Source: Saprospiraceae bacterium (GTDB lineage Bacteria > Bacteroidota > Bacteroidia > Chitinophagales > Saprospiraceae). Taken from it: a stretch of DNA of 64,000 nucleotides. Below, piece after piece: positions 23,632 to 57,385 of this stretch. The stretch is from contig JALHRR010000018.1 of NCBI GenBank assembly GCA_022841345.1, positions 1-64,000 on the forward strand, given 5' to 3'. The stretch's first letter is position 1. The number at the start of each line of letters is the position of its first letter. A program made the position numbers and the translations under genes. The notes beneath the pieces were generated by a model. The model was not told where the DNA came from, did not search any database, and worked only from the letters and a program-made list of their open reading frames with translations.

Positions 23632-23780
23632 CACATCACCTTGCAACTTTTGAAGCGTAGTTGCAAAAAGTTGCAAGACATCACTTCTTTGCGGCGAAGC
23701 CAAGATGAAACATCACCTTGCAAGCCGCAGGCGCAGAAAGACACTTGTAGCGAGTGAACGCAGTGAACCTCGCTATCACC
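23632..23780 (-). repeat. Hairpin-array repeat A, copy 1
   Basis: Reading the minus strand, delimiters GGTGATAGC (23780-23772), AGTGTCTTT-like (about 23745), GGTGATGTT (23717-23709), AGTGATGTC (23685-23677) and GGTGATGTG (23640-23632) separate palindromic spacers. The spacer at 23641-23676 has an 11-bp perfect stem (TTGCAACTTTT/AAAAGTTGCAA). The array starts 67 bp downstream of the minus-strand GH3 gene, in its sense direction. Confidence 0.75.
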
Positions 23781-26800: not shown

Positions 26801-26852
26801 ATACTAAAAGGTGAAGCGGAATATTATTTATATATAGTGCACGACGGCTCAT
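23847..26852 (-). CDS. GH3 beta-N-acetylglucosaminidase / beta-lactamase-fold serine hydrolase fusion
   Basis: 1,001 residues, exported (hydrophobic stretch at 13-26). Residues about 65-385 are a family 3 glycoside hydrolase of NagZ type: KHFPGHGDT (237-245) supplies the Asp-His loop and Asp324 in TDALEMKG is the nucleophile. Residues about 420-590 resemble a GH3 C-terminal or linker domain. Residues about 605-995 are a beta-lactamase/class C-type serine hydrolase with SVTK (672-675), a YSD segment and HTG. A role in peptidoglycan fragment turnover is likely. The architecture recurs in Bacteroidota. Its ATG overlaps the stop of the upstream gene by 4 bp, implying translational coupling. Confidence 0.9.
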   Translation of the reverse strand: MSRRALYINNIPLHLLVLLCSLLMLSAHTDNRKPVPDATEPIPALAFRALKVPGVREMVWVDSVYNSMTLDERIGQLFMIRAHSNLGPEHVKKVEDQIKKFHVGGLCFFQGTPYKQLELTQKYQALSQKVPLMISMDAEWGLGMRLNKDSVIVYPRSLMMGAIDDNQIVYNFGREIGKQLKRLGVHINFGPVVDINNNPLNPVINDRSFGEDKYNVVTKSYMYMIGLQDEGVMACAKHFPGHGDTQVDSHYDLPVVNHDIRRLEQFELFPFQLLADNGLQSMMIAHMHIPALDSTPNLPTTLSPAVVDTLLRQRMQFNGLVFTDALEMKGVTKNFKQAEIATRAIMAGNDVLLLPEDIEVAFKALKDGFLDLSIPLYRLEESVKRILKAKFRTGLTYNNTPALENLSNDLNNGMGLLIKEEIIANAMTLVKDTAGLIPVQYSSGQKTLVLSIGSPAAQGFPAAVQRYIPADTMSLSMNFTVNQRNELLQDLDKYDLLLISVHPGSRLATKEFGITQQSIQLIRQISKSKKTIISVFGNPYALQLFGGLSSVVMAYEDDLMVHDLCVQALFGARSFTGKLPVSVGNQWKFRSGIESKTTTRLKYGIAEGMGVSTRELEKLDGIAKEMMQIKAAPGCQIMVIKDQTVIYHKAFGKHIYDGSRPVKLEDLYDVASVTKVASTTLALMKLYEDGKIDLDKTLGDYLPGLKGSNKENLVIKDVMAHRAGLYPWLPFYRKTISAGKGQVTLDSTIYKTSPQPGYIQVAENIYLDTVYMQNIWTQIRDSELLPSKAYRYSDLGFILFSKLVFNVTGQTLDEYVDKEFYKPLGMYHTMFNPRTKIDPVHIIPTEDDNYFRSQLLRGYVHDMAAAMLGGVSGHAGLFSNANDMGILMTMLSQKGTYAGKSYLKPETIEYFTTRYPGETRRALGFDMQQLDRTKGVNVTGLASAGTFGHTGFTGTCAWVDPECGVTFIFLSNRVYPTMDNNKLNDYQYRLRMHYAVYKAAE

Positions 26853-43177: not shown

Positions 43178-43207
43178 GGGCTGTGAAGTGGCTATAGTTG
43201 TAGCACG

Positions 43208-43643
43208 GGTGACGTCTTGCGGCGCTGCGCTTGCAAGGTGACATCCTTAGGCTACGCCAAATGGTGAGGTCGAGGTTCGTCCCTCACTATGCCCCAGGCA
43301 TCTTTGCCATCTTCGATGTCAAAGGTGACGGCCCCACAAAAGCAACATTTTTGGACTCAAATTCAGTCTACAGCCACCATTTTGCCTGAGGCAAAATAAA
43401 AGCGCTATTTGAAAATCCTCCTCTCTACTTGCGTCTAGTAAATTTGCCTCAGGCAAAATGGCCACCAGAACGTCACCTCATATTATTTTTAAAGGCTCAG
43501 CCTTTAAAAATAATTTGAGACGTCACCTTTTTATTGCATAGCAATGAAAAGACGTCCCCCCGGCCAGGCGCAGCCGTGCCGGGGCGTCACACTTTTTTGG
43601 CAGCGCCTCCTCTATAAAAGACCTGCTGTCCCAGGGTGTCACT
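43208..43643. repeat. Hairpin-array repeat A, copy 2 (two halves facing each other)
   Basis: Left half, plus sense: delimiters GGTGACGTC 43208, GGTGACATC 43237, GGTGAGGTC 43263, GGTGACGGC 43324. Right half, minus sense: delimiters ending at 43643, 43590, 43559, 43527 and 43477. Spacers in the right half are palindromes filling the whole interval: 43478-43518 (18 of 19 pairs, loop TCA), 43528-43550 (9 of 10, loop ATA), 43558-43584 (10 of 12, loop GCA). In the middle 43377-43395 and 43443-43461 form a 19-bp inverted repeat, each arm holding TTTGCC-TGA/TCA-GGCAAA. The halves face the 3' ends of trhO and the DUF4153 gene respectively. No gene in 43178-43684. Confidence 0.85.
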
Positions 43644-43684
43644 CGCGAGTGGTAGCGCCTATACCACTACACCTCTGCAACTTC

Positions 43685-45514
43685 TCAATACATAAAATAC
43701 CCATTCAGAAAATCAATCTCAGCTTTCCCATCTCTGAAACTTCCTTCTAAAAACGAAATAGAAATTTTTACATCTTCACCATCGATAGTCTTACCCGTCC
43801 AGGTTTGCATGTCCTTTTCAAGCGTATATTTATCCACAGCATCTCTGTTCATTTGTCCGCTCAATTCTTCCAAGGATATTTCTGCCCAGGGGAGATTGTC
43901 CCTTTTGACAATTAACTGATTATTATCTATTGAGAATGAAAGAGCAATTTTTCTGGTACTGTCAGTAAACACCTGCATCGTATTGGAGCGATTCCGGATA
44001 TTATTTGACTGAAATTGTACAATAGAATCGTAGCCTTTTATATCAAAAGCAAACTCTGAAATCTGATGAGATGCATTCATGCTAAAACGATTGTCGAAAT
44101 CAGCCATTTCCACAGGATTACCCATTCCAAAGTCAACTGCAGTGCATTGTCCCAAATGTTGCATGATAGTATAAGTTGAAAAATTACGGTCCGTTTTTTC
44201 TTTTTCCTGCATTAAGGCGTAGCAAGAATCTGGAACAAATTCCTCAATCACACTCAGGCCGTGTAAAGATAATGCATCGGAGAAAGCAGTTGAAAGTTCA
44301 GATAATTGTTCATTCTTTATTTGCAAGGGCACTGATTTTTCAGGAAGTCTTTCAAGAGGTGGCTCCATGTTTGATAATGCTTCTCTGATATGGTTTTTTC
44401 TATACTTTTTATCCAAATCAAAAGCACTCCAGGGGCTGAATAATACCCATAATGTAAATGCCAGAAAGCTCAGTGGAAACCAAATCAAAGTTTTTCGCCT
44501 GATGAATACCTGATAAGCAGTAGTCAGCAAAAGCCAGATTCCGATGCTCAAAACCACAACTCTGTTGAATGTCAATCCATGCTGACTTATCCGCATACCG
44601 ATGCTCATCAATTGAATGATGGTGAGCGGGAGCAATGCAGGAAACAACCATTGACGGGTGAGCCGAACAAATGTCTGACGCTCATCTTTCAATGGATGGC
44701 AGATGATGTAAGTCACTATTGTTAAAGCCGCAGCCGAAAATACGAGGTATGTAACCCAGCCCCTCGGCCATTCACCCAACAGCAACATCCTGACACCGTA
44801 AGCATATAAAATTCCCACGTAAAGTACGGATAAGGGAAGAAATACAAAAACAACTATTGGTTTTATGAATGAAGGTGCCGGGCCGGTTTCATCCTCCATT
44901 TTTTGATCCGGAACAATGGCTACAAAAAGTAAGACAAACAGCGCCACAAGACAGACAATGGCTACATCTTCATAAGTAAAACCGGGATTTTCGATTTGAA
45001 ATAAATTGACCAGTGCTGCTCTTGCCAGAGATAAGGCAATGCAAAGAACCAATGCATATAGTCCGGCCACCACTACTGATGTGATCAGATTCTTCAAATA
45101 AACCCAATAGGCACTTTCTCCTTTCCAGTAACGGATAGGAGCTGCAAGTGCAATTAAAATGCCTGTGACTATCCATCCGGCAAAGTGATATGCGAGTATT
45201 TCTGTATGCTGCGGGATTTCCCAAATTTGCCAGGCAGCCAATCCTGTCAAAACCATCACCAGCAGCCATGAAATCCATTGTATTTTACCTGATACTCTTT
45301 GCCAGTATCCTGCACTATAAACCAGCGGCAATGAAATGAATCCGCAAAGCATTATTTTTAAATATACATTCTTTGATGCATAGTCCTGGTAATCAATGTC
45401 AATATACTTCAGAATGATGGCAGACTGCAAAAATGAAACTATCAGCAGTATCGGATATTTCTTAAATGAGCCGATAATGGCGCTGCTGATTCTTTGGTAG
45501 GAAATCCTTTTCAT
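43685..45514 (-). CDS. DUF4153 multi-pass membrane protein
   Basis: 609 residues: about ten membrane helices in the first 390 residues and a soluble C-terminal domain of about 210 residues. The helix pattern with LLLGEWPRGWVTYLVFS matches DUF4153. Function unknown in the family. Upstream lies a full promoter. The soluble tail has no motif I know. Its 3' end points into the repeat A array. Confidence 0.82.
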   Translation of the reverse strand: MKRISYQRISSAIIGSFKKYPILLIVSFLQSAIILKYIDIDYQDYASKNVYLKIMLCGFISLPLVYSAGYWQRVSGKIQWISWLLVMVLTGLAAWQIWEIPQHTEILAYHFAGWIVTGILIALAAPIRYWKGESAYWVYLKNLITSVVVAGLYALVLCIALSLARAALVNLFQIENPGFTYEDVAIVCLVALFVLLFVAIVPDQKMEDETGPAPSFIKPIVVFVFLPLSVLYVGILYAYGVRMLLLGEWPRGWVTYLVFSAAALTIVTYIICHPLKDERQTFVRLTRQWLFPALLPLTIIQLMSIGMRISQHGLTFNRVVVLSIGIWLLLTTAYQVFIRRKTLIWFPLSFLAFTLWVLFSPWSAFDLDKKYRKNHIREALSNMEPPLERLPEKSVPLQIKNEQLSELSTAFSDALSLHGLSVIEEFVPDSCYALMQEKEKTDRNFSTYTIMQHLGQCTAVDFGMGNPVEMADFDNRFSMNASHQISEFAFDIKGYDSIVQFQSNNIRNRSNTMQVFTDSTRKIALSFSIDNNQLIVKRDNLPWAEISLEELSGQMNRDAVDKYTLEKDMQTWTGKTIDGEDVKISISFLEGSFRDGKAEIDFLNGYFMY

Positions 45515-45535
45515 TTTGCTTCATTTTGTTGTAAA

Positions 45536-45570
45536 CAAAGCTACAGAAAAGAGCAACATGAATTATCAAA
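45536..45570 (-). promoter_or_regulatory. Promoter of the DUF4153 gene
   Basis: Minus strand TTTG (45570-45567), 23-bp spacer, TAGCTTTG (45543-45536). Confidence 0.55.
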
Positions 45571-45673
45571 GAAAATGAAATTGGACTCAATTAACAAGTT
45601 TACATAACCATTTGAAATATGGATAACTTTATTCTTACTTTATATTTGTTTTCACTGTTTTTAAATAAGATGC

Positions 45674-47128
45674 ATGTTGAGCTCAAACTATTTCATTTAT
45701 AAAACCCTTCCGCTCATGTTCTGTCTCTTTGGGTGGTCATGTAAATCACCTCAATTTGCTATAACTGCTCAATTTGATGCAGTCATGCCTTTTCATGAAG
45801 GTGTCGCCCCTGCAAAAAAGTATGATTTATGGGGCTTTATAGACACAAATGGAATCTGGGTGATCCAACCACAATTTAAAGAGATAATTAAAACAGATAA
45901 AGCAAAGGTTTTAATGGTTTTGGAAAATGGAGATCATGCTGAAGTCATTAAGAATAAAGCAAGTGGCGCATGGGAAATCCAAACAGCTGAATTTAATAAA
46001 ATTGAAATTCAATCTTCCTACGGCCCACGCTACATTGAGAAGCAGGGTGGTTTTTATGTTATAATTGATAAAACTGGTTCTCCGATTTCTCCTGAATACA
46101 ATTCTATCCAGTATGCAGGAGAAGATGTATTTGTAGGACAAAAAAATTATGAAGGACAACATCTTATTCACGCTGATGGCAGGATTTTGACACCTTTTTA
46201 TGATGAAATTGATACTATCATTCAGTATGGGCGAATCCGCTTCAGAAAAGATAGAAAATATGGTTTACTCGATCCAGGCGGAAAGGTAATACTGGAGCCC
46301 TGTATGTGGCTTCTTGAAATTGCAGGTTATAATATTGCATGTACCATGGGAGGTAAGTTAGTATTACACACAGACCAATTAGAAAAACTCTCCGACTGGG
46401 AATTCGATCGAATTCAATATTTATCTGCGGACAGATGGATTGGGGTAAACTCAGATACAGGCTTAGGCACAATCTGTGATCTTGAAGGGAATCAGCTGGT
46501 AAAGGATGTTTTTGTTAGCAACGGTGAAATGAAATTCGGCAAACTTCCGGCCAAAAATAAGAATGAAAAATGGGGATATCTCGACCACAATGGAGAAGAG
46601 GTGATACCATTTGAATATGGTTATACAACAACTTTTATGTCTAATGGTGCTGCAATCTTCGAAATGAAGGATCCCATAAAAGGATGGTTTAAAGGTGTTT
46701 TGGATACTACAAATACAATTTTATTACCCGCGGATGAATATGACGAAATCCTTTTTCATGATGACGGAATTTATACCATCGTTCAGGATAAAAAATTTCA
46801 ATTATTTAATGAAAAATTTGAGCCTTTAACCGGAAAATTCCGTCGTCCGGTAGAGTACTCCGGAAACGGCGTGTACATTGTTTATAAATTCAAAACAAAG
46901 CTTGAGTTTGAAAGCTCCAACTGGTATACTGGCAGAAAAGGTGGGTTGAAAATATCAAAAGAAGGTTTTGTAAAAGGAATATATTCTCTGGATGGTCAAT
47001 TACTTGTTTCTGCTTCTGATTATAGTGAAGACGACAATCTACCACAATGCAAAGAAGGTTTTGTGGCAGCAAAAAGTGGAAAACGCTGGGGATTTGTGAA
47101 ATGTACTACTCACAAATCCCCGGACTGA
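45674..47128 (+). CDS. WG-repeat protein, exported
   Basis: 484 residues with a hydrophobic N-terminus followed by GWSCKSP, perhaps a weak lipobox. At least six WG-type repeats (WGFIDTNGIWVIQPQF, YGLLDPGGKVILEP, WGYLDHNGEEVIPFEY, and the final WGFVK) give a beta-propeller or beta-sheet array. Such proteins are common in Bacteroidota, usually of unknown role in the envelope. No partner gene. Confidence 0.85.
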   Translation: MLSSNYFIYKTLPLMFCLFGWSCKSPQFAITAQFDAVMPFHEGVAPAKKYDLWGFIDTNGIWVIQPQFKEIIKTDKAKVLMVLENGDHAEVIKNKASGAWEIQTAEFNKIEIQSSYGPRYIEKQGGFYVIIDKTGSPISPEYNSIQYAGEDVFVGQKNYEGQHLIHADGRILTPFYDEIDTIIQYGRIRFRKDRKYGLLDPGGKVILEPCMWLLEIAGYNIACTMGGKLVLHTDQLEKLSDWEFDRIQYLSADRWIGVNSDTGLGTICDLEGNQLVKDVFVSNGEMKFGKLPAKNKNEKWGYLDHNGEEVIPFEYGYTTTFMSNGAAIFEMKDPIKGWFKGVLDTTNTILLPADEYDEILFHDDGIYTIVQDKKFQLFNEKFEPLTGKFRRPVEYSGNGVYIVYKFKTKLEFESSNWYTGRKGGLKISKEGFVKGIYSLDGQLLVSASDYSEDDNLPQCKEGFVAAKSGKRWGFVKCTTHKSPD

Positions 47129-47485
47129 GTTTTTAACCAACATAGCTGCTAATAGGCTGTTTGTTTTCAAATCTCCTATATAACACTTTTGCAGAACATT
47201 GATATTCAATGATTTAAAAAATTCTAAATTCTACCTTCTAAATTCTAAATTTCAGGCCCCGCCGTGTTATCTTTATCGAATGGTCCCCAAAGCTTTGGGA
47301 CGGGGACTGAAAACTGAAAACTCCTATATAACACTTTAGCACAACGCTGATATTCAATGTTTTATAAACAAGCAAAAATCAAATGATTTTCAAAACTTTA
47401 TTTAAAAAATCGACTTCTTTTCGGCTGTTCCAAATCTTAAATCTGATCCCCAAAGCTTTGGGGACTGAAACCTGAAATCTGAAAT
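47129..47485. repeat. Gap with direct repeat D and CCCCAAAGCTTTGGGG palindromes
   Basis: No gene. A 43-bp segment at about 47172-47215 (TCCTATATAACACTTT...GATATTCAATG) recurs at about 47321-47362. Palindromes CCCAAAGCTTTGGG (47286-47299) and CCCCAAAGCTTTGGGG (47448-47463) are each followed by GACTGAAA. CTGAAA and CTAAATT words are repeated in tandem. Confidence 0.7.
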
Positions 47486-48109
47486 CTACTCTTCCCCTTT
47501 CCTATCATACTGACAACATCCATGCAACTTCTCATACACTTCCTTATCAGCTTTGACATTCGGAGTATCGTGCCCTACTGAAGCTACTTTTTGTTCGATC
47601 TGCAATTGAGTGATTTTTTCTTCATCAAAGCGAACATGCAGCTTTTCAGTTTCCTGATTCCAAAAGGCAAAGAATATACCCGGCAATTCATTCACTGCTG
47701 ATTCGATACGGGTTTTGCACATACCGCAATTGCCGGCTACAGGAAATATGCTCTCTTTGTATTTTTCTGCTGAAGCTGTGACTGCTGCAGCAGGCTTATA
47801 TTCGTCAATCTTGCCATTTGCTCTGTGAATACTGACTTTAGTAGCTGTATAACCGGCCTTATCGACCGTCTTCACAACTTGCTCAGGTGTGTAATTGGTC
47901 TCTGAAGGAACTAAAAACTGCATGGTACCTCCTTCCAGGTCAATATTAAACTGGCGAATTCCCTCTACATTACGGAAGGCCTTTTCAAGACCATTGGCAC
48001 AAAACGGGCAACCCATTCCATCCACTTTAGCACGAATAGTATCCCTGCTCTGTGCGGAAATTTGAAGACTCATTCCAAGTGCAAAAACTAAAACAATTAT
48101 ATTTCTCAT
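47486..48109 (-). CDS. Exported protein with two heavy-metal-associated domains
   Basis: 207 residues, signal peptide ending ISAQ (17-20). HMA domain 1 has GMGCPFC (Cys34, Cys37); domain 2 has AGNCGMC (Cys128, Cys131). Both keep the CxxC pair, so it should bind a soft metal such as copper in the periplasm. The C-terminus has CCQYD. It is the last gene of a three-gene minus-strand group, 18 bp after the barrel protein. Confidence 0.88.
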   Translation of the reverse strand: MRNIIVLVFALGMSLQISAQSRDTIRAKVDGMGCPFCANGLEKAFRNVEGIRQFNIDLEGGTMQFLVPSETNYTPEQVVKTVDKAGYTATKVSIHRANGKIDEYKPAAAVTASAEKYKESIFPVAGNCGMCKTRIESAVNELPGIFFAFWNQETEKLHVRFDEEKITQLQIEQKVASVGHDTPNVKADKEVYEKLHGCCQYDRKGEE

Positions 48110-48127
48110 GATTAAATGATTTAAAAA

Positions 48128-48901
48128 TTAAAGAATAAAACGACCACCAATCAATACTGCAATATCCCTGGTAAAATGAACAGGAACCTTCTCCACAAGT
48201 GGCACCTGCAGGGACAGATCGATGGTATAACTCCTGAATGCAAACTGAATTCCCTGCGCTGCGTACACTGCATGATCATCCGTCGTTGGCATCCATCTTG
48301 CTTCATATTCAAAGTACAACGTCACCTGATTCACAGGATAAACTGGTTTTTTCAGAGGAATTCCGAAGGACATTCTGGATTCCAGGTAATTGGGATGTAT
48401 CTCCGAAAAGTGATTATATCCCAGTTCACCTACAATCCCATATTTCAATGATTCGAATCCGGCCAAAGCACCTACATATGTTTGAAACGCTCCCATTCCC
48501 ACATGGGGTACTTCAGAAGGTCTTCCTGTGGGAAACATTTCACTGGCTTTCACCGCCATTCTGAAAGTTTGTCCCATTTTGTCCTTTCTAAGAAATTGAT
48601 ATTTTGCCTTCAGCATAATATCACCTGGTTTCATACCTTCTCTTCTGTCAAATCCTGTGACAGATGCAAATGGTATTTCGATTCCCAGTTCCAGATTGCT
48701 TTTGACATTGTATTCAAACATCAGGGGTACAATATGGTAATGATTATCGGCATGCTTGAAATATTGATAATATGTTCGGATGGTTCCCTTATTTGCTCCC
48801 AGCATGATGGGTTTATCAGTACGGATGGGAGGTCCCTGCGCCATTGCACTAAAAGCAAAAAGGCTCATGATAACTAACAGTATATAGTGTTGATTTTTCA
48901 T
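48128..48901 (-). CDS. Outer-membrane beta-barrel protein, transporter-like
   Basis: 257 residues from ATG 48901 (a TTG at 48913 is less likely). The signal peptide ends AMAQ. Alternating amphipathic strands (YNVKSNLELGIEIPF, GDIMLKAKYQFL, GIVGELGYNHF, VTLYFEYEARW) and a terminal aromatic/hydrophobic residue pattern indicate a 12-strand-like barrel of the MetA-pathway/phenol-transporter type. Position between an HMA protein and an HYC_CC_PP protein suggests metal export or uptake. Specific substrate unknown. Confidence 0.75.
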   Translation of the reverse strand: MKNQHYILLVIMSLFAFSAMAQGPPIRTDKPIMLGANKGTIRTYYQYFKHADNHYHIVPLMFEYNVKSNLELGIEIPFASVTGFDRREGMKPGDIMLKAKYQFLRKDKMGQTFRMAVKASEMFPTGRPSEVPHVGMGAFQTYVGALAGFESLKYGIVGELGYNHFSEIHPNYLESRMSFGIPLKKPVYPVNQVTLYFEYEARWMPTTDDHAVYAAQGIQFAFRSYTIDLSLQVPLVEKVPVHFTRDIAVLIGGRFIL

Positions 48902-49038
48902 TTTTTGATTCAAAGATTTGATTGTAAAAGGAAGTGCAAAAAGGCAAAATGCCCCTTTAATCCTGTCAATTTATTCCGGTGTATCCATTATAAAAAAAGA
49001 TACCCCTGAGTAACCAACAGATTCTCAGATCAAATCAT

Positions 49039-49506
49039 TCAAATTAAAAATGCCTGTAATCGGACTGTGATATCCGTCCAGATGAGCGGAGGATGATAAT
49101 GAAGAAAATTCCACTGTGTTCCACATAGAGGAATAGAGAATAATACTTCAGCTCGCGGAATGACAATATATGCTAACTGAATCAATTGATTAAGATCCAG
49201 TTGAGTTCCGGGCTTCAGCTCCTGTTTTACTTTTTCAAAGTCTGTTTCATCCTCGCAGCAGGATTTTTTAGCATCCGCCATTTCTTCCAATGCTTTGATG
49301 CAGCATGGTTTCAGATTCTCTCTCGGAATGCTGGTCAGCAAGGCATAAGCATCCTGCATCTCACATCCTGATTCACCGCAACCTTCCACATGCGCCATAA
49401 GCGACACATACTTCAGGTCTCCCTTGCAGTAGTGCTTATTGAGTGCAATCCCTATACCACTGAGGTATATGCTGGTCGCCAATAATATGTGAAGTACTTT
49501 TATCAA
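49039..49506 (-). CDS. HYC_CC_PP family protein
   Basis: 155 residues with an N-terminal signal or membrane anchor. All features that name the family are visible: HYC (25-27), CC pairs (68-69 and 83-84) and PP in HYHPPL (139-140). The family is typical of Bacteroidota and found with metal-handling genes. Eight or more Cys suggest metal binding outside the cytoplasm. It is the first gene of the minus-strand metal cluster, with a -7 box upstream; 137 bp separate it from the barrel gene. Confidence 0.85.
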   Translation of the reverse strand: MIKVLHILLATSIYLSGIGIALNKHYCKGDLKYVSLMAHVEGCGESGCEMQDAYALLTSIPRENLKPCCIKALEEMADAKKSCCEDETDFEKVKQELKPGTQLDLNQLIQLAYIVIPRAEVLFSIPLCGTQWNFLHYHPPLIWTDITVRLQAFLI

Positions 49507-49523
49507 CTTTTAAATTTCTGTCA

Positions 49524-49531
49524 CAAAGGTA
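49524..49531 (-). promoter_or_regulatory. Putative -7 box of the metal cluster
   Basis: Minus-strand TACCTTTG matches TAnnTTTG, 18 bp before ATG 49506. No clear -33 element. Confidence 0.45.
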
Positions 49532-49687
49532 ATACATCTGTGTTCGTTAAGTTCTATATGTGCTCGTGTTTAACAAGTTGTTATAAACTAGCCGCTCTCA
49601 TTAATTACGCCCAGCAAAGAAATAATTCCAAACCATTCGCGTCATAATAGATCGGTTTTTAATTCTTATACAACAATATCAAAAGAC

Positions 49688-50311
49688 ATGAACCAACTTA
49701 AGATCCTGTTTTCTCTGTCGCTTATGTGGTTAGCTTCTTTAAGCTGTTATTCCCAGTATTATAGTCGGGTTCATGAAGAATATAAACTGAGTGGCAAAGA
49801 TTGCAGAATAGTGGTCTACAGCCTCTATTTAAATAATGCCAATTTTGATCCCAGAGATGATAAGTTATTGGGAACTTATTCTATAGTTTTTGGAAATAGC
49901 TGCATTGACTTCAGGAATACTCCTGAAGTATTGGATTTTATTAAAACTGAAAATACATATCATTTAACAGTTGTCACTTCACAAATTGAGCTCAGTCCGA
50001 CACCTGACACCAGCAACTTAGAAGCTGAGAAAATTAACGTATCATGCTTTCTCATAACTACCGATTTCTGGGATAACAATGGCTCTTTTGAGAACCTGAA
50101 GGATGATATAAGACTTGGGAATCATATTGTTACTATATGGACCAATGATGGAGAATTTATTGGAGATGCCAAAATTGTTGATCTACTGAGATCAAAAGGT
50201 TACAATATAGAATATAGTATAAATGGAGCTCATACAGGGTTCGAAATCAAAAAAGATGATCCTCAATACGCGAGAAAAGTAATTGAACATTTGCGAAAGG
50301 TAAGCCAATAG
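49688..50311 (+). CDS. Exported protein of unknown function
   Basis: 207 residues with a signal peptide (about 1-22, CYSQ). Three further Cys; beta-rich, acidic. KVIEHLRKV at the end is helical. It is divergent from the metal cluster and 97 bp before the next gene. No family recognised. Confidence 0.65.
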   Translation: MNQLKILFSLSLMWLASLSCYSQYYSRVHEEYKLSGKDCRIVVYSLYLNNANFDPRDDKLLGTYSIVFGNSCIDFRNTPEVLDFIKTENTYHLTVVTSQIELSPTPDTSNLEAEKINVSCFLITTDFWDNNGSFENLKDDIRLGNHIVTIWTNDGEFIGDAKIVDLLRSKGYNIEYSINGAHTGFEIKKDDPQYARKVIEHLRKVSQ

Positions 50312-50408
50312 CCTTCACTGATTATTCAGTTTTATTGTTTAACTTTTCTATAGTTTATTCGCTGTACTCACGATAAAACCTGAACTTTGAATTCCTGAAA
50401 CCAAAGTT

Positions 50409-50939
50409 TTGATACAGCGAATCGCCATCATATTATTTTCACTCTCCCTTTTTGCTCCTGCAATCATAACCATCTCATGCCTGAAGTATCAGAAGACAAA
50501 AGTCAGAAAGCAGATGAAAAGAATCATCATGGAAGGAGTCGATCCACATGAACTGGTGCATTTTACTTTTCATCTGAAAGATACTGCAACCCTTCTCAGA
50601 TGGGAGCATCATAAAGAGTTTGAATATCTGGAACAGATGTATGATATAGTAGAAAGAACTTATTTTGAGGATTCAGTCACCTATCTGTGTTGGTGGGATC
50701 ATGCTGAGACATCGCTCAATAAAGAACTTTCTGCAACTGTCTTTAATTTGCTAAAACAGAATCCTGGCAAATCCAAAGCTCAGGATAAATTTGTCTCATT
50801 CTACAAATCTTTGTTTTGCACAGAAGAGCCATCTTTCGCTCAAGTGCAATTTTCCAATATAACTGAATCTCAATTCAGGTATGTAAGCCTTTTTTCCAGG
50901 ACAAGCTTACAACCTCCTTTCCCACCTCCGGACTTATAA
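50409..50939 (+). CDS. Membrane-anchored protein of unknown function, upstream of TonB receptor
   Basis: 176 residues, starting at TTG 50409 (no nearby ATG before the hydrophobic segment). One N-terminal membrane helix, then YQKTKVRKQMKRIIMEGV, a basic helix, DPHELVHFTFHLKD and a Pro-rich end PPFPPPDL. I recall similar short proteins beside TonB-dependent receptors in Bacteroidota but have no function for them. The receptor starts 114 bp downstream in the same direction. Confidence 0.65.
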   Translation: MIQRIAIILFSLSLFAPAIITISCLKYQKTKVRKQMKRIIMEGVDPHELVHFTFHLKDTATLLRWEHHKEFEYLEQMYDIVERTYFEDSVTYLCWWDHAETSLNKELSATVFNLLKQNPGKSKAQDKFVSFYKSLFCTEEPSFAQVQFSNITESQFRYVSLFSRTSLQPPFPPPDL

Positions 50940-51053
50940 ATTCACATGTTGATATGTTAAACATGTCTGAGTTAATCCTCAACATTTGGGATCCTTTTGT
51001 ACACCTCTGTACAAGAGCATGACATTTATATTTATAGCAAAGATTTATCTTCA

Positions 51054-53465
51054 ATGAAATCAAGAATTTTATTGTTTCTGATATGGGGCTTTTCTTACAG
51101 CTTGTCAGCTCAAACTATTACTGTCAAAGATCTTGAGACTCTTCAGCCTATTGAAATGGCTGTACTGACAAGTGAAGAACCCCGTCAATCCGCTGCTACA
51201 AATGCCTTGGGACAAGCGGATATTTCTGCCTTTGCAGGTTCAGAAGTGATTGTAATCACTGCACTTGGTTACCAACCTGTTGTTATCAGCTATCATCAAC
51301 TTTCCGCTGATGGATTTATGCTTTCTTTGCAATCCTTTGGCCTGAGTCTTGAGACTGTGGTTGTAACAGGCACCAGATGGAGACAAAAATCCGGAGATAT
51401 TCCTTCCAAAATTATCTCCATTTCTCCTCAGGAAATTGCCATGCAAAATCCTCAGACTGCTGCAGATCTGTTGGGTATTTCAGGCAAGGTATTTATCCAG
51501 AAAAGCCAGCAGGGTGGAGGAAGTCCCATGATCAGGGGCTTTGCGAGCAACAGGCTGCTTTATGCAGTGGATGGTATTCGAATGAATTCTGCCATTTTCA
51601 GGGCCGGAAATATTCAGAATGTAATCAACATTGATCCGTTTGCAACGGAAAGTGTTGAGGTACTTTTCGGTCCCGGTTCGGTGATTTATGGTAGTGACGC
51701 TATTGGAGGGGTGATGAGTTTTCAGACATTGACTCCGCAATTTTCACAGGATGAAAAGCCATTGGTAAAAGGCAAATTTGTTACACGCTATTCATCAGCC
51801 AATGATGAAAAAACCGGTCATTTTGATGTCAATATTGGCTGGAAAAAATGGTCCCTTGTCAGCAGTATCAGTTCCTGGAATTATGATCATCTGCGACAGG
51901 GCAATCATGGGCCCACAGATTATCTCAAACCATATTTTGTCCAAAGACAAAATAGTTCGGATGTTGTGATCACTCAGGATGATCCTTTGCTGCAAATTCC
52001 TTCAGCTTACCGGCAGATAAATGTTATGCAGAAAATTCGCTTTTCTCCCAATGAGAAATGGGATTTTCAGTATGGGTTTCATTATTCCGGGACATCTCCA
52101 TATGGTCGCTATGATCGTCACAACAGAGTGCGCAACGGAACGGCCTGGCATGCTGAATGGAATTATGGACCTCAACTATGGCAGATGCATCATTTGAATA
52201 TGACACACAAAGGCGCCAATGTTGCTTACGATCAGCTAAGTCTGAGAATTGCCCAACAGACATTTGAAGAAAGCCGGATCGACCGCAATTTGAATAGTGT
52301 AGAAAGAAACACACAGGAGGAAAAAGTGCTGGCTTATTCTGCCAATTTGGATTTTACGAAACGCACATCTGCTTCAAATACATTATTCTACGGGCTTGAG
52401 TTTGTCCTGAACAATGTAGAATCCACAGGCATGCTGACCGATATCAACACAGGAGTGAGTGGAGTGGGTGCTTCAAGGTATCCTGCTGCTTCATGGACTT
52501 CAGCTGCGGCGTATATCAATGATGCTTACAAGATCAGAGAAAACTTGACTTTGCAGGGCGGCATGAGATACAATCACATTTTGATAGAGGCTGATTTTAG
52601 TAATAATCTTCCATTCTTTCCTTTTCCATTCAGTTCAGACAGTATCAACAATGGCAACTTAACAGGAAGCATTGGGGCTGTTTACAAACCATCCGAAAGC
52701 TGGGTGATCAGCACTAATCTTGGAACTGCTTTCAGATCTCCGAATGTAGATGATTTGGGAAAAGTATTTGATTCAGAACCCGGAACAGTGACTGTCCCCA
52801 ATCCCGGCTTAAAACCAGAATACGCTTACAATGCCGATCTGGGCATCGCAAAAGTATTCGGCAATCGGCTCAAGATTGATCTTACAGGCTTTTACACCAT
52901 CCTTCAGAATGCATTGGTGCGCAGAAATTATACTTTGAATGGGCAGGATAGTATTTTGTTTGGAGGAGAATTGGCAGGAGTTCAGGCCATCCAGAATGCT
53001 GCAGTAGCCAATGTGTATGGATTACAAGCTGGTCTGGAATGGAAGATTGGAGTCGGTTTCAGTTTCTCAACTGATCTGAATATTCAAATCGGAGAGGAAG
53101 AGCTCGACGATGGCACGACCAGTACTTCCAGGCATGCTGCTCCTATGTTTGGGGTGTCAAGATTGCTTTTCAATACAGGAAAATTGAGTCTTCAATTCTA
53201 CTCCATGTATCAGGCTGAAAGAACATTCGCTGACCTACCTCAGGAGGAAAAGGCCAAAGATGAAATCTATGCCAAAGATGCTGATGGTAACAATTATGCG
53301 CCTGCCTGGTACACCCTCAATTTCAAAGCGATGTATCAGCTCTCCAACACTTTTTCTATCTCTACCGGAATAGAAAATCTGACAGATAAGCGATATCGGC
53401 CATTTAGTTCGGGCATCTCAGCTCCGGGAATCAACTTTATGATCTCCTTGAAAGCAAGTTTTTAG
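51054..53465 (+). CDS. TonB-dependent receptor, heme/hemoglobin-receptor type
   Basis: 803 residues from ATG 51054 (an earlier ATG at 50997 would put 19 polar residues before the signal peptide). Signal peptide ends LSAQ; residues 22-100 form a carboxypeptidase-D-like domain; the plug contains KSQQGGGSPMIRGFASNR, VDGIRMNSAIFRAGN and FGPGSVIYGSDAIGG, close to HmuR-type receptors; the barrel ends in a terminal Phe. It probably imports heme or another iron/metal complex across the outer membrane using TonB energy. Repeat A begins 31 bp after the stop. Confidence 0.88.
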   Translation: MKSRILLFLIWGFSYSLSAQTITVKDLETLQPIEMAVLTSEEPRQSAATNALGQADISAFAGSEVIVITALGYQPVVISYHQLSADGFMLSLQSFGLSLETVVVTGTRWRQKSGDIPSKIISISPQEIAMQNPQTAADLLGISGKVFIQKSQQGGGSPMIRGFASNRLLYAVDGIRMNSAIFRAGNIQNVINIDPFATESVEVLFGPGSVIYGSDAIGGVMSFQTLTPQFSQDEKPLVKGKFVTRYSSANDEKTGHFDVNIGWKKWSLVSSISSWNYDHLRQGNHGPTDYLKPYFVQRQNSSDVVITQDDPLLQIPSAYRQINVMQKIRFSPNEKWDFQYGFHYSGTSPYGRYDRHNRVRNGTAWHAEWNYGPQLWQMHHLNMTHKGANVAYDQLSLRIAQQTFEESRIDRNLNSVERNTQEEKVLAYSANLDFTKRTSASNTLFYGLEFVLNNVESTGMLTDINTGVSGVGASRYPAASWTSAAAYINDAYKIRENLTLQGGMRYNHILIEADFSNNLPFFPFPFSSDSINNGNLTGSIGAVYKPSESWVISTNLGTAFRSPNVDDLGKVFDSEPGTVTVPNPGLKPEYAYNADLGIAKVFGNRLKIDLTGFYTILQNALVRRNYTLNGQDSILFGGELAGVQAIQNAAVANVYGLQAGLEWKIGVGFSFSTDLNIQIGEEELDDGTTSTSRHAAPMFGVSRLLFNTGKLSLQFYSMYQAERTFADLPQEEKAKDEIYAKDADGNNYAPAWYTLNFKAMYQLSNTFSISTGIENLTDKRYRPFSSGISAPGINFMISLKASF

Positions 53466-53496
53466 TTGTGTTCCAACAGGCTTTTGTCGTGGGACG

Positions 53497-53610
53497 GGTG
53501 ACGCCATGCTGCGCTTCGCTTGCATGGTGACATCCTTTGCCTACGGCAAAAAGTGACATCCCCGAATTTACTTGTCTGCTCCGCAGTCAAGTAAATTCGG
53601 AGGTGACAGC
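53497..53610 (+). repeat. Hairpin-array repeat A, copy 3
   Basis: Delimiters GGTGACGCC 53497, GGTGACATC 53526, AGTGACATC 53552, GGTGACAGC 53602: spacing 29, 26, 50. Spacers: 20 bp with ATGC/GCAT ends, 17 bp with TTTGCC-TAC-GGCAAA, 41 bp (53561-53601) that folds in 17 of 19 pairs around TCC. It starts 31 bp downstream of the TonB receptor stop, in sense orientation. Confidence 0.9.
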
Positions 53611-53890
53611 TAGCGCAAAATACCAGCAGGCAAGTCCCTGCTCTCTCTCCGATGGTCGTCCCCAAAGCATTGGGGATCGATCCAATATTTCATGAATTTT
53701 TAATTCATCTACTACATATCCACTTCTTTACTCAAAAATGGCTGTTATCGATTAACCGATTCTCCAATTAGCCGATTACCTTCTGCTCTCTCACACAATG
53801 CTTCCCGTAGCTTTCAGCTGCGGCTCCCACACTCACACACTTCTTAGCTAAATTGAACTTCTAAGGTCGTAGCTGAAAGCTACTCTGAGC
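53611..53890 (+). repeat. Repeat A flank and repeat C, copy 1
   Basis: TAGCGCAAA plus a CAGGCAA segment, then CCGATGGTCG, a palindrome CCCCAA/TTGGGG, CGATCC, ATGAATT-TTT-AATTCAT (53692-53708), CTCAAAAATGGCTGTT and GATTAACCGATTC, then at 53791-53890 the CCCGTAGCT...GGTCGTAGCT block with GTAGCT-GAA-AGCTAC. The same order recurs at 57010-57385. Confidence 0.8.
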
Positions 53891-54131
53891 ATCTAAGGGA
53901 CAAATGGCTGCTAATTGGCTGTTTCATTGGCTGTTCTGGCTGTTCAATCGTAATTCGTAATTCGTAATTCGTAAATAGTATTAACGAGCCATTCTCCAAG
54001 CTACTCTTGTCAAAATGTAAACGAAATGGTTGTTCATTCGGCTGTTCCATTTTCAACTTTCCATCACCTTAAAATCCTCTTAGAATCATATTCCCTTCCC
54101 CCATAGTAAACATCTTAATCTAATTACCCCT
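53891..54131. repeat. Gap with (CGTAATT)n tandem repeat
   Basis: About three and a half copies of CGTAATT at 53949-53973, preceded by repeated GGCTGTT words. No gene. The gap continues into the promoter of the next gene. Confidence 0.6.
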
Positions 54132-54139
54132 TACCTTTG
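54132..54139 (+). promoter_or_regulatory. Putative -7 box of the FecA-like receptor
   Basis: TACCTTTG matches TAnnTTTG, 23 bp before ATG 54163; no clear -33. Confidence 0.45.
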
Positions 54140-54162
54140 CGGCTCCAATCAGATTATGACTA

Positions 54163-56823
54163 ATGAGATATAGATTACTACTGCTCTTTATATTATTCAA
54201 TCTCTTTGCCTTTACCCAAAGTCTGACTGCTCAGCAAATCACAATTTTAGAAGGTCAAATTTTCTCTGCAAATCACAGTGAGCCTATTGCAGGCGCTCTG
54301 ATTTTTACAGAAAATAATAAAGCAAATTATGCAGACGAAAAAGGTCATTTCAAACTGGAAGTACCCAGCGGAAAATTGCATCTGACGATTGAATTTCTGG
54401 GCTTTGAAAGTTATGAATATAAAAATCCCAATCTTGCTCCGGGGAAGTTTGACCTCGGAAAAATTGAATTAAAAGAAAAGCAAACATACCTGAAAGAAGT
54501 CCAGGTGAGCGCTTCACAACTACCATTCAGGAGTTCATTCGAAGGAACTAATTACTATATCAGTCCTAAGCTGCTCAAGGACATGCAGCCTGTTTCTACG
54601 GAAGAAGCCCTGAAAATAATCCCCGGCGTAAATATTCTCGGTGATATGGGTCTTTCAAATCGGCCGAATGTAAGTATTCGCGGATCATGGGGACGAAGAT
54701 CTGAAAAGGTATTGATGATGGAAGACGGTTCACCCATATCGCCTGCACCTTATACCGCACCGGGTGTTTACTACAATCCCATCAGCGATAGAATCGATGC
54801 AATCGAAGTATATACAGGAGCTGACATTCTGAAATATGGACCGAATAATATGTTTGGAATCATCAATTATATTTCCCCCAAACCACCTCAACAACCCGGA
54901 CTTCGCACCAAAATTGTGGGTGGTCAGAGAGGATTTTTTACGGGATTATTATCCTATGGCGGAACATGGAATAAAGTAGGCACTTTGGTCGAGGCTGTAT
55001 ACAAAAGATTTGATGGATTTATTCAAAATTCATCTGTCGATATGATCAATCTGAATGCCAAAATTTTTGCTGAATTGGCTGAAAATCAATCCCTGTATTT
55101 CAAGATCAGCGGACAGTTTGAGGATAATCAGGCCTCTTTGAGTTCCATCACTCCATTGACATTCAAATTAGATCCTACCCAAAACCCATTTGATGCAGAC
55201 AGATTTACCATGCACAGATATGGTCTGGATATCATTCACAAATGGCTGGCTGGATCAGATATGAGTTTGACTACTAAAATATTTGCTTCTGATTTTGCCA
55301 GAGACTGGTGGAGACAGACTACTGCTTTAATCCCTGCAGCAGATGTCAGAGGATATGTTGGTGAAAATATTTTTTCAGACAGATATTCTTACCTGGAAGG
55401 CCAAAGTTTCGGCGAAAATGACTTTGTCCGTGTAGGCAGAATCCGTAATGGCAGAGAATCCACGACGGATAGCCGCTGGCATTTTACCGTAGCAGGAGTT
55501 GAAGAGACTTTTCAGAAGGAGTGGAAAGGCTCTGACAAATGGAGTAATAGTTTGGAAGCACAATTGAAATTACATTCAGAGACTTACAAAGACATGGTTC
55601 TAAATGCTGATTCAAGCAGATGGGCGAGAAGCGGAACATTTACCACGGATCTTGCTTATACATTGCGTTCAATTTCCGGATATATCAGAGATCAATTTCA
55701 ATGGAAACAATTTCATTTGACTCCCATCCTGCGATTTGAGCAGGTGTGGATGGACAGAACTGACAGGCTTGCCGGTTCGATGGACCCTAATGCCAGTGGC
55801 GAGGAATCTGCTTCAAGGGTAAACAGTTATAATATTCTCCAGCCCGGTTTGACATTGGCTTATCAGGTCAATCAGGTCAAAGTATTCGGTAGTGTGTATC
55901 GCGGTTACATAGCTCCATCCAAATATTTCGCATTTTTGGTGGAGAGGGATGGAGTATTGGTTCCACCGGATTTTGGCTACGCAAGTAATATTCAACCCGA
56001 AATCAGTCTTAACTCAGAAATTGGCATTCGCGGCGAATTATTGGATGGCAGATTGAGCGGTCAGTTTGCATTATTTAACAATCGAATCCGCAATTTTTAT
56101 CTCGCTGGCTGGAATGAGTATTTTGATAAACTCGGAGTTATTAATATCCGGGGACTGGAAGCTTCGCTGAGATTTGATCTTTTGCCTAAGTTAAGTGAAC
56201 ACAAAATCAGCGTTCAACCAAATATCACATTGCTGCAGACAGGGATCATCAGCGGAGAAATGATTGACAGACATCTATTTACCCAGGTAGTTCACAATAC
56301 TGCCACCCGGAATGAATTTATTGAAAAAGTAAATGCTAATCCTGCCGGGTATCAGGTATATATCAGAAATGGACAGGGCGCAGAGCAGTTACTGAACCGC
56401 CCCATCACGGAAGCAGATCTTTCTCAAATCAGCAGAACAGTTTACAAATTCGGGGAAGGCGGTATTGAAGATGGAGTAGCACCTTATTCACCGGCAGTGG
56501 CTTTTTTCATGAATGTTTCTTATTCATTCAGAAAATTCACATTTGGCCTCAGCTACAATCGCATTGGAGCACAATATGCAGAATTTGCCAATTTTAGCAA
56601 CGAATCCTCTGATGGCGCCATTGGCAAAATTCCTGCTTATCACACTTTCGATTTCAACATCAACTACGATTTCATACTTGCAAAAACCCGTTGTTCCGTA
56701 TTCATAGTTGGCAAAAACATAGGCAATGACATTTTTCTGGCCTCCCGGCTCAATCGCGGCCAGTCAGGTATCATGCCGGGGGGATTCAGACAGGTTAATG
56801 CAGGGGTTAATATGGTGTTTTGA
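54163..56823 (+). CDS. TonB-dependent receptor, FecA (iron-citrate) type
   Basis: 886 residues. Signal peptide ends SLTAQ; residues about 26-110 are a carboxypeptidase-regulatory-like domain; the plug has SIRGSWGRRSEKVLMMEDG and ISPAPYTAPGVYYNP, PNNMFGIINYISP, corresponding to the FecA plug; a 22-strand barrel follows, ending MVF. It probably imports ferric citrate or a similar chelate. No FecI/FecR pair or TonB-box signalling domain is seen. The gene is bracketed by direct copies of the repeat A/C composite. Confidence 0.88.
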   Translation: MRYRLLLLFILFNLFAFTQSLTAQQITILEGQIFSANHSEPIAGALIFTENNKANYADEKGHFKLEVPSGKLHLTIEFLGFESYEYKNPNLAPGKFDLGKIELKEKQTYLKEVQVSASQLPFRSSFEGTNYYISPKLLKDMQPVSTEEALKIIPGVNILGDMGLSNRPNVSIRGSWGRRSEKVLMMEDGSPISPAPYTAPGVYYNPISDRIDAIEVYTGADILKYGPNNMFGIINYISPKPPQQPGLRTKIVGGQRGFFTGLLSYGGTWNKVGTLVEAVYKRFDGFIQNSSVDMINLNAKIFAELAENQSLYFKISGQFEDNQASLSSITPLTFKLDPTQNPFDADRFTMHRYGLDIIHKWLAGSDMSLTTKIFASDFARDWWRQTTALIPAADVRGYVGENIFSDRYSYLEGQSFGENDFVRVGRIRNGRESTTDSRWHFTVAGVEETFQKEWKGSDKWSNSLEAQLKLHSETYKDMVLNADSSRWARSGTFTTDLAYTLRSISGYIRDQFQWKQFHLTPILRFEQVWMDRTDRLAGSMDPNASGEESASRVNSYNILQPGLTLAYQVNQVKVFGSVYRGYIAPSKYFAFLVERDGVLVPPDFGYASNIQPEISLNSEIGIRGELLDGRLSGQFALFNNRIRNFYLAGWNEYFDKLGVINIRGLEASLRFDLLPKLSEHKISVQPNITLLQTGIISGEMIDRHLFTQVVHNTATRNEFIEKVNANPAGYQVYIRNGQGAEQLLNRPITEADLSQISRTVYKFGEGGIEDGVAPYSPAVAFFMNVSYSFRKFTFGLSYNRIGAQYAEFANFSNESSDGAIGKIPAYHTFDFNINYDFILAKTRCSVFIVGKNIGNDIFLASRLNRGQSGIMPGGFRQVNAGVNMVF

Positions 56824-56895
56824 GTTAAAGCGCAATTACTACCGCTTAAAACAGCTCTCCCCTTTCAGCTTCTTACAAGCTTTTGTTGCAGCCCC

Positions 56896-57009
56896 GGTGA
56901 CGCCATGCTGCGCTGCGCTTGCAAGGTGACATCCTTTGCCTTCGGCAAATGGTGATGCCTCCTGAATAAATTGTTTGCGAAGCAAGCAATTTATTCAGGA
57001 GGTGACAGC
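56896..57009 (+). repeat. Hairpin-array repeat A, copy 4
   Basis: Delimiters GGTGACGCC 56896, GGTGACATC 56925, GGTGATGCC 56951, GGTGACAGC 57001: spacing 29, 26, 50, identical to copy 3. The 17-bp spacer has TTTGCC-TTC-GGCAAA; the 41-bp spacer (56960-57000) pairs at 18 of 19 positions around loop GAA. It begins 72 bp after the FecA-like gene, sense orientation. Confidence 0.9.
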
Positions 57010-57385
57010 TAGCGCAAACTACAGGCAGGCAATTCCCCTGCTTTCACTTTGTCAGATCCGATAGTCATTTCATGAATTTACAATTCATGGATGACAAATT
57101 CACTTCTATACACGAAATGGCTGCTTCACTCATAATTCATCACTCATCATTCATAACTCCCACCTCCGATGGTCGAAGTCTATGACTTCGATCCCATATT
57201 TTATGAATTTGCAATTCATCCACGACACATTCACTTCATGACTCAAAAATGGCTGTTTACGATTAACCGATTCCCTGCAGCTCTGCCACCCAATGCTTCC
57301 CGTAGCTTCCAGATATGGCACCCACACTCACACACTTCTCAGCAAATTTGAACTTCTAAGGTCGTAGCTGAAAGCTACTCTGAGC
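57010..57385 (+). repeat. Repeat A flank and repeat C, copy 2, with an internal duplication
   Basis: Same order of blocks as 53611-53890, but the ATGAATT/AATTCAT unit occurs twice: CATGAATT-TAC-AATTCATG (57071-57089) and ATGAATT-TGC-AATTCAT (57203-57219). In the CCGATGGTCG...CGATCC frame the palindrome is TCGAAGTC-TAT-GACTTCGA (57173-57191) rather than CCCCAA/TTGGGG. It ends with GTAGCT-GAA-AGCTAC (about 57364-57378). No gene in 56824-57395. Confidence 0.8.

Follow-up and report, generated by a model that had tools for sequence, protein, structure and literature searches.

What kind of element is formed by the strings of palindromes that recur at four places in a 64,000-nt stretch of a Saprospiraceae bacterium genome (assembly GCA_022841345.1, contig JALHRR010000018.1, positions 1 to 64,000; hereafter the window)? 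A preliminary description, made from the letters of the window only, had presented them as near-perfect palindromes separated by a 9-bp delimiter of the GGTGACRTC type. We confirmed the coordinates and spacings of all four loci and found that they belong to a real, large family of the surrounding genome, a 5.87-Mb draft in 310 contigs. This family works in the manner of repetitive extragenic palindromes (REPs), lacks their GTAG foot, and is set apart by an ordered arm of several hairpins (HP1, HP2 and HP3).

The pattern GGTGAYRYC-N8-38-GGTGAYRYC gave 67 forward and 67 reverse matches in this genome, while the reversed-pattern control gave 0 on each strand, making 134 paired-delimiter matches against a control of 0. 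The family is real and ordered. The covariance-model search that the preliminary description had proposed revealed many further copies. This model, R1, was built from 20 arms of type A (see below) and yielded 148 matches, 112 of which span the first to the last model position and 36 of which are partial. The count is a lower bound, 150 of 1957 first-look candidates having been scored, and a few of the 112 end-to-end matches are without some hairpins (e.g., locus L442). Within the window, 91 single delimiters with at most one mismatch were found versus 57.2 +/- 8.8 expected. A parser called 143 chains, including a few chance or overlapping ones (e.g., window 36042), and this figure is hence no copy number. 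R1 had no match in 198 other sampled genomes of the bacterial family, which were searched under stricter filters with 15 candidates scored per genome. In relatives, the paired-delimiter pattern occurred 0 to 3 times per genome, and 3 of 33 intervals fold as single hairpins; in the own genome, 65 of 94 distinct intervals do so. Between unlinked arms, identity reaches at most 94.9% over 98 nt and 94.2% over 120 nt; an arm pair at L133 goes back to a local duplication. The copies are scattered, but their spread is not recent.

Parsing of the DNA around the listed matches showed a constant order in the arm: a leader of approximately GCTTTAGTCGTAGCACG, a linker, HP1 (mostly 18-24 nt), a linker, HP2 (about 16-24 nt), a linker, HP3 (about 20-43 nt), a last linker and a tail. 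Type A has GGTGACATC linkers and a tail GGTGACAGCTnGCGC...GCAGGCAGGTC and is found as single arms. Type C arms contain four hairpins rather than three. Half elements, with one arm, comprise type A and part of type C, whereas full elements, in which two inward-facing arms surround a centre, are formed by type B arms (GGTGACGCC/GTC) and by some of type C (GGTGATGTC). Three such centres measured 136, 155 and 158 bp. In the window, copy 2 has this two-arm form. Spacings of 29, 26 and 50 are identical in copies 3 and 4 when the delimiter starts are re-read, and copy 2 opens with 29 and 26 while its opposed arm closes with 50. This spacing is true of type A, but other subtypes have 32/32/50, 32/30/46 and so on. 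The 9-bp delimiter does recur as described, but its ends are not free: among 268 distinct units, the last base of one delimiter pairs with the first base of the next as C-G in 213 and as T-A in 38, so the unpaired linker is the 7-nt GTGAYRY. Likewise, the intervals are palindromic and most have 3-nt loops, but HP1 is imperfect, with a bulge or internal loop. The centre triplet of 162 symmetric odd-length units is TNC in 101 and GNA in 7.

The ends of the unit were located by BLAST among 52 single arms with 300-bp flanks, which produced 519 alignments that were 90 nt or longer (874 pairs in all). Right ends of homology lie 0 to +49 nt from the start of the terminal delimiter in 450 of 519 alignments, and left ends lie at -130 to -101 from the terminal delimiter, that is, 0-25 nt before the first linker, in 289 of 519. 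This clustering at both sides indicates a dispersed unit of roughly 150-160 bp. At L083, L084 and L090, tandem partial heads are repeated up to three times before a full arm, each made of a linker plus the left HP1 half, after which a new leader begins; they may mark an insertion or copying mechanism. The stem arms of HP3 are swapped at L073:1414-1571 (reverse strand) and L089:1431-1586 (reverse strand), which read CAATTTATT...AATAAATTG or similar instead of the usual AATAAATTG...CAATTTATT.

The copies in the window and the features that adjoin them are as follows.

53480..53645, forward strand: copy 3, a type A half element, with its leader at 53480-53496 and delimiters at 53497, 53526, 53552 and 53602; its limits were set from the BLAST alignments above.
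53506-53525, 53535-53551 and 53561-53601, forward strand: HP1, HP2 and HP3 of copy 3, with the tail from 53611.
53480-53636, forward strand: R1 match of copy 3, 173.4 bits (copy 3 is itself part of the model).
56879..57045, forward strand: copy 4, a type A half element, with its leader at 56879-56895 and delimiters at 56896, 56925, 56951 and 57001.
56905-56924, 56934-56950 and 56960-57000, forward strand: HP1, HP2 and HP3 of copy 4, with the tail from 57010.
56879-57035, forward strand: R1 match of copy 4, 170.1 bits (copy 4 is itself part of the model).
43191..43332, forward strand: left arm of copy 2, a full (two-arm) element, with a leader, HP1 at 43217-43236, HP2 at 43246-43262, a split linker, HP3 at 43303-43323 and the last delimiter at 43324-43332.
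43191-43363, forward strand: R1 match of this left arm, 54.5 bits (the arm is outside the model).
43268..43298, forward strand: 31-nt palindromic insert with core GAGGTTCGTCCCTCACT within the linker GGTGA^CATC; related inserts occupy the same linker position in other arms.
43377..43461, no strand assigned: centre of the copy 2 full element, two ATTTTGCCTnnGGCAAAAT-type hairpins; similar hairpins occur in L006, L076, L083, L086 and L090.
43469..43608, reverse strand: right arm of copy 2, in the opposite orientation, with HP3 at 43478-43518, HP2 at 43528-43550, HP1 at 43560-43582 and the leader at 43592-43608; a truncated extra head reaches 43643.
23632..23780, reverse strand: copy 1, a type C arm (GGTGATGTC type), with HP3 at 23641-23676, HP2 at 23686-23708 and HP1 at 23718-23739; the genome has other arms of this type.
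23744-23775, reverse strand: 32-nt insert splitting the first linker of copy 1.
53646..53712, forward strand: hairpins adjoining copy 3 (GATGGTCG...GATCGATC and TTCATGAATT-ttt-AATTCATC), resembling by eye the family that flanks the REP-associated tyrosine transposase (RAYT) of L034.
57171..57192, forward strand: hairpin GGTCGAAGTC-TAT-GACTTCGAT, a member of the L034 RAYT-flanking family.

The filler between genes beside the arrays (window 53948-53974 and 57126-57159; also L092 and L125) contains many GGCTGTT heptamers and short tandem runs, e.g., TCGTAAT and TCACTCATAATTCA. Window 23847-26852 (reverse strand) holds a single open reading frame (ORF) of 1001 aa that combines a glycosyl hydrolase family 3 domain with a beta-lactamase-type domain.

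The arms are modular. HP3 of the TCCGAAATAAATTG type sits on three linker types (GTGACAT, GTGACGY and GTGATGT), and at L442 HP1 is followed by the terminal linker and tail, HP2 and HP3 having been lost between linkers. At window 43263, L076, L091, L096, L129 and L142, an insert of about 31 nt with the core GAGGTTCGTTCCTCACT interrupts the linker directly behind GTGA, and the linker resumes with CATC, CATT or CGTC. A related insert splits GTGA^TGTC in L029, L069 and L094, and another, at window 23744-23775, splits the linker preceding HP1. Certain "delimiters" counted earlier in copies 1 and 2 (23772 and 43263) are linkers split by an insert of this kind. The insert core also stands alone, at L074:1258 (reverse strand), L108:983 (forward strand) and L134:1414 (forward strand), as palindromes of type CGCGAGGTTCGTTCCTCACTGCGCGA. 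We take the insert to be another small palindrome, for which the linkers provide the site. With linkers in common, hairpin modules could be swapped, dropped or interrupted in the manner of cassettes.

Covariation was examined in the 20 type A arms with a hand-drawn structure of 35 pairs. Two-sided changes were present in 15 pairs versus 5.7 in shuffles (0 of 500 shuffles reached this number) and 3-7 with slid partners, and the covariation score was 0.193 versus 0.061. The hairpin structure is selected. Among the 46 distinct sequences of the main HP3 class, compensatory change preserves most stem pairs. Pair 16, located four pairs down from the loop, forms in only 8 of the 46, whereas its neighbours form in 36 and 41, and the mismatch has many identities. 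Several other hairpin classes, among those with at least five distinct members, have a mismatch or bulge at a similar stem height.

If RNA were the working form, one strand should be richer in G.U pairs than in A.C mismatches. Where positions are mostly paired, distinct states numbered 19 for G.T and 20 for A.C. A raw asymmetry on the array strand (A.C 88, G.T 28) was rejected, inherited copies of a few hairpins having been counted repeatedly. Genomic context was counted for the 66 arrays that lie between two called ORFs, out of 78 kept after removal of two false arrays inside coding genes (window 46523 and 5184); gene calls were crude ORFs. Relative to both flanking genes, 21 arrays run in the same direction and 22 in the opposite one. 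Arrays between convergent genes number 17 and those between divergent genes 6 (p = 0.035). Neutral mismatch types together with neutral gene orientation favour DNA hairpins over RNA. GC skew was too noisy for a replication-strand bias of the arrays to be read.

Besides the arms, the genome encodes four Y1 transposase ORFs (PF01797). Three of them are RAYTs above the NF047646 cut-off (93.9, 87.1 and 96.2 bits), so the search for such an enzyme suggested in the preliminary description was productive. The L034 RAYT is 50% and 47% identical to the other two, and all three share HIH, YIHxNP, a HuH-Y distance of 85 and an SS pair near the C end. Hairpins with 3-nt loops, particular to each RAYT, stand on both sides of the three genes. 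The L034 hairpin family (GGTCGAAGTCnnnGACTTCGAT) has 16 genome copies, all with TNY loops, and is present near copy 4, with a look-alike near copy 3. Flanks of the L033 RAYT hold CATCCTGCTGCGC...GCTTGCAAG, which are HP1 arm sequences, and the L032 hairpins start with GGTCGTAGC, like the arm leader. Application of R1 to ten RAYT-type loci detected one end-to-end match, at L033:2010-2182 (22.1 bits; E = 1.7e-4, or 1.3e-5 for the locus alone, both rough E-values), and no other match below E = 0.2 at these loci save the same place in L390. The L033 RAYT could thus be the cognate enzyme or a cousin of it, which makes it a lead. No GGTGAYRYC array was found at the IS200-type locus L031 or at three weaker RAYT-like matches, two further weak matches being left out. 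No RVT_1 match to a reverse transcriptase, as a copying enzyme, was found in the genome. In relatives, distinct triloop palindromes with a stem of 7 bp or longer number 38 at 29 RAYT loci (4.14 per 10 kb; present in 14 of the loci), compared with 10 at 37 control loci (0.83 per 10 kb; present in 9). At L395, L397 and L405, also in relatives, the RAYT is adjoined by a pair of unlike hairpins with linkers of 5-8 nt.

Similar arrays were sought by three-delimiter scans of genome contigs and of viral contigs, which gave 229 stretches among the matches listed; the array test identified 53 distinct arrays in the own genome. In an earlier pass over 189 of the 229 stretches, the 40 best intervals had all been tandem repeats, mostly codon-like ones. 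When the array test was applied to all 229, it returned 30 overlapping hits, and among the 25 listed one was a true hairpin array (L366), the others looking like tandem repeats. L366 belongs to viral contig IMGVR_UViG_3300028832_000052 (37.8 kb, 61.5% GC), on which PHROGs identify genes for a terminase small subunit and a major head protein. There, GGTGATATC/GGTGAAATC linkers alternate with short perfect GC hairpins, mostly with 3-nt loops, such as CGCC-ttc-GGCG, CGC-tgc-GCG and TGCCGC-gtg-GCGGCA. Narrower scans recovered this contig too and added a small array on a second viral contig, L450. Viral arrays resemble the arms in that linkers alternate with 3-nt-loop hairpins and several arrays occur per contig; they differ in having perfect GC stems of 3-6 bp, no recognised HP1-HP3 order and units on one strand. 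Their shared GGTGAYRYC linker is partly a product of the search pattern, and the likeness is one of layout. The linker-hairpin layout is thus wider than this genome. Neither the L366 array, compared by BLAST with phages and plasmids, nor copy 3, compared with phages, had a match. Linker-hairpin strings (GGTGATATC/GGTGAAATC) were seen at loci L366, L451, L452 and L450. Separately, runs of a GGTGACACCTC-containing repeat (period 28 in L210) were noticed in L149, L210, L218 (Bacteroidetes metagenome-assembled genome Ja1_bin-1389), L177 and L163, with a similar delimiter and different intervals.

How does the family relate to known systems? The statement that no described family has this layout holds in part: searches of open-licence PubMed Central listed no description of ordered multi-hairpin arrays, but REP-like kin are on record. 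REPs are usually treated as a single hairpin or a mirrored pair, group 3 REPs have perfect stems, and a GTAG/GTGG tetranucleotide at the hairpin foot is a trait of REPs and of bacterial interspersed mosaic elements (BIMEs). The present palindromes share with REP/BIME elements and their RAYT (TnpA-REP) small loops, imperfect stems with an unpaired mid-stem position, a high copy number, a mostly intergenic location (by the crude ORF calls), more convergent than divergent sites, and RAYTs in the genome. Small-loop imperfect DNA hairpins in intergenic regions of a RAYT-bearing genome argue for REP-like kinship. As the preliminary description had recognised, however, the arms are more ordered than ordinary REP/BIME elements, since three or four different hairpins follow in a fixed order with a 7-nt linker, a leader and a tail, in contrast to one REP or an inverted pair. 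BOX elements of streptococci are likewise modular repeats with different sub-units in fixed order; the likeness to the arms is one of layout. As in clustered regularly interspaced short palindromic repeats (CRISPR), a short direct repeat alternates with other sequence, but the "spacers" here are palindromes of recurring families, and arrays of 3-4 units are dispersed genome-wide. A CRISPR reading was dropped on account of these recurring palindromic intervals; no search for cas genes was made. A known RNA family was likewise set aside for the window copies: the Rfam scan of the window at gathering score gave two tRNAs only.

PMC6006769 places the RAYTs of Bacteroidetes in subclass 2.6 / group 5 and reports beside them "atypical secondary structures" that lack a GT[AG]G tag; its text holds no sequences of these. 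The RAYTs here come near this subclass in their HuH-Y distance (85 versus a subclass median of 82), an SS pair is seen near the C end, and their own flanking hairpins are not GT[AG]G-tagged and have copies elsewhere. They differ in the Y motif (YIH[FL]NP here versus YIH[QN]NP), and the arrays are not beside such a gene. CGTC-tagged REPs (PMC3733652) have a CGTC tag, a stem of 8-9 bp, a loop of 4-5 nt, a CCA tail and no adjacent transposase. On the complementary strand, the linkers here likewise place CGTC, TGTC or CATC before a hairpin, and no RAYT was found beside the GGTGAYRYC arrays, but loops are mostly 3 nt, stems are about 7-20 bp and the arms hold several hairpins. With loops mostly of 3 nt and longer, more varied stems, identity with CGTC-tagged REPs as characterised there was rejected. 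The excess of convergent over divergent sites matches that reported for REPs in PMC3733652. According to PMC8266576, TnpA-REP of Escherichia coli needs the unpaired state of the stem more than its sequence, and the HP3 mismatch parallels it.

It is rather probable, in our judgement, that the arms are a dispersed, non-coding, composite REP-like family moved in trans by a HUH enzyme of the RAYT group. They resemble an unusually elaborate form of REPs more than a CRISPR or a novel immunity system. The hairpins would act as folded single-stranded DNA, and a HUH (Y1) transposase of this group would copy or insert the arms in trans during replication, reading the loop, the mid-stem mismatch or bulge, and the linker. 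What is observed directly comprises copy number, order, covariation, the fixed mismatch, approximate unit ends, module exchange and the presence of RAYTs; single-stranded DNA as the working form and a RAYT as the mover are what we infer from it. Several findings weigh against this reading. No GGTGAYRYC array lies within about 1.5 kb on either side of the three RAYT loci, and the R1 match at L033 is weak and marginal if taken genome-wide. GTAG/GTGG is absent at the linker GTGAYRY, with only the leader containing a variable GTCGTAG. Second clusters of left ends occur at -90 to -71 (100 of 519) and -60 to -41 (71 of 519), from homology confined to HP2/HP3. Enrichment of triloop palindromes at RAYT loci of relatives is smaller for stems of at least 8 bp (14 versus 6 in controls), and the TNY triloop was rejected as a RAYT signature (26 of 38 at RAYT flanks versus 7 of 10 in controls). 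No empty site was seen, the orthologue in the same-genus genome G001 being without synteny on the flanks examined. Since the closest unlinked arms are 94-95% identical, the family may be inactive. Finally, all 11 units of the viral contig IMGVR_UViG_3300028832_000052 are on the reverse strand (control 0), which leaves room for a transcript-level role there; the one-strand viral arrays and the L033 match thus pull in opposite ways.

Such a role at the RNA level, with hairpins in 3' untranslated regions that end transcription or protect mRNA ends and a two-arm form that serves convergent genes, is the alternative these viral units suggest, their strand being shared with the terminase small subunit and major head protein genes. 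It would also suit the stable folds, the start of window copies 2, 3 and 4 at 30-72 nt past a stop codon, and the position of the sole full element of the window between convergent genes. We nevertheless regard it as unlikely for the family, because array direction is neutral in the 66 arrays, the distinct mismatch states show no G.U-type asymmetry, and a T-run is lacking after the last hairpin of type A. The two opposed arms around a short centre in type B and C full elements recall instead a miniature inverted-repeat transposable element whose long terminal inverted repeats are rich in hairpins and which a DDE transposase would move. However, many copies consist of one arm with ends of its own, and hairpins and leaders differ between the two arms of an element, so that this origin seems quite improbable.

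A further alternative dispenses with a dedicated enzyme: template switching would maintain the palindromes, and recombination or gene conversion would spread them. This would fit the exchange and loss of modules between linkers and the tandem partial heads in L083, L084 and L090. Palindrome correction should, however, erase the fixed HP3 mismatch, yet this persists with varied identities, and more than 100 arms at dispersed sites require a dispersal mechanism; we give this explanation little chance. Imperfect, bulged, intergenic hairpins also bring to mind attC-like sites, on which an integron integrase acts as folded single-stranded DNA. None of 13 TIGR02249 matches exceeded the cut-off (best 127 bits versus 265), and all 14 control genomes likewise gave matches below it; we consider such sites extremely improbable here.

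Beyond the RAYT-moved family favoured above, a more general class may tentatively be proposed, namely cassette-string mobile DNA, made of ordered, interchangeable single-stranded DNA hairpins on a common GTGAYRY linker that would serve as tag, as site of module exchange or loss and as target of the hairpin insert of about 31 nt, which sits at GTGA^YRTC in several arms. If it exists, HUH enzymes would have a class of multi-hairpin substrates in which several different hairpins are read together, in contrast to the single or paired ones known to date, and which is not confined to one lineage. The viral linker-hairpin strings suggest that the layout is worth a wide search. In this one genome, more than 100 arms are available in which three or four different hairpins retain their order, a fixed mismatch and a linker, although the hairpin sequences drift and are swapped. 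Such a set makes it possible to test the recognition code of HUH/RAYT enzymes from sequence, as loop, mismatch and linker persist and stem sequence does not. Moreover, the arms give shape to the little-described "atypical" repeats of Bacteroidetes RAYTs.

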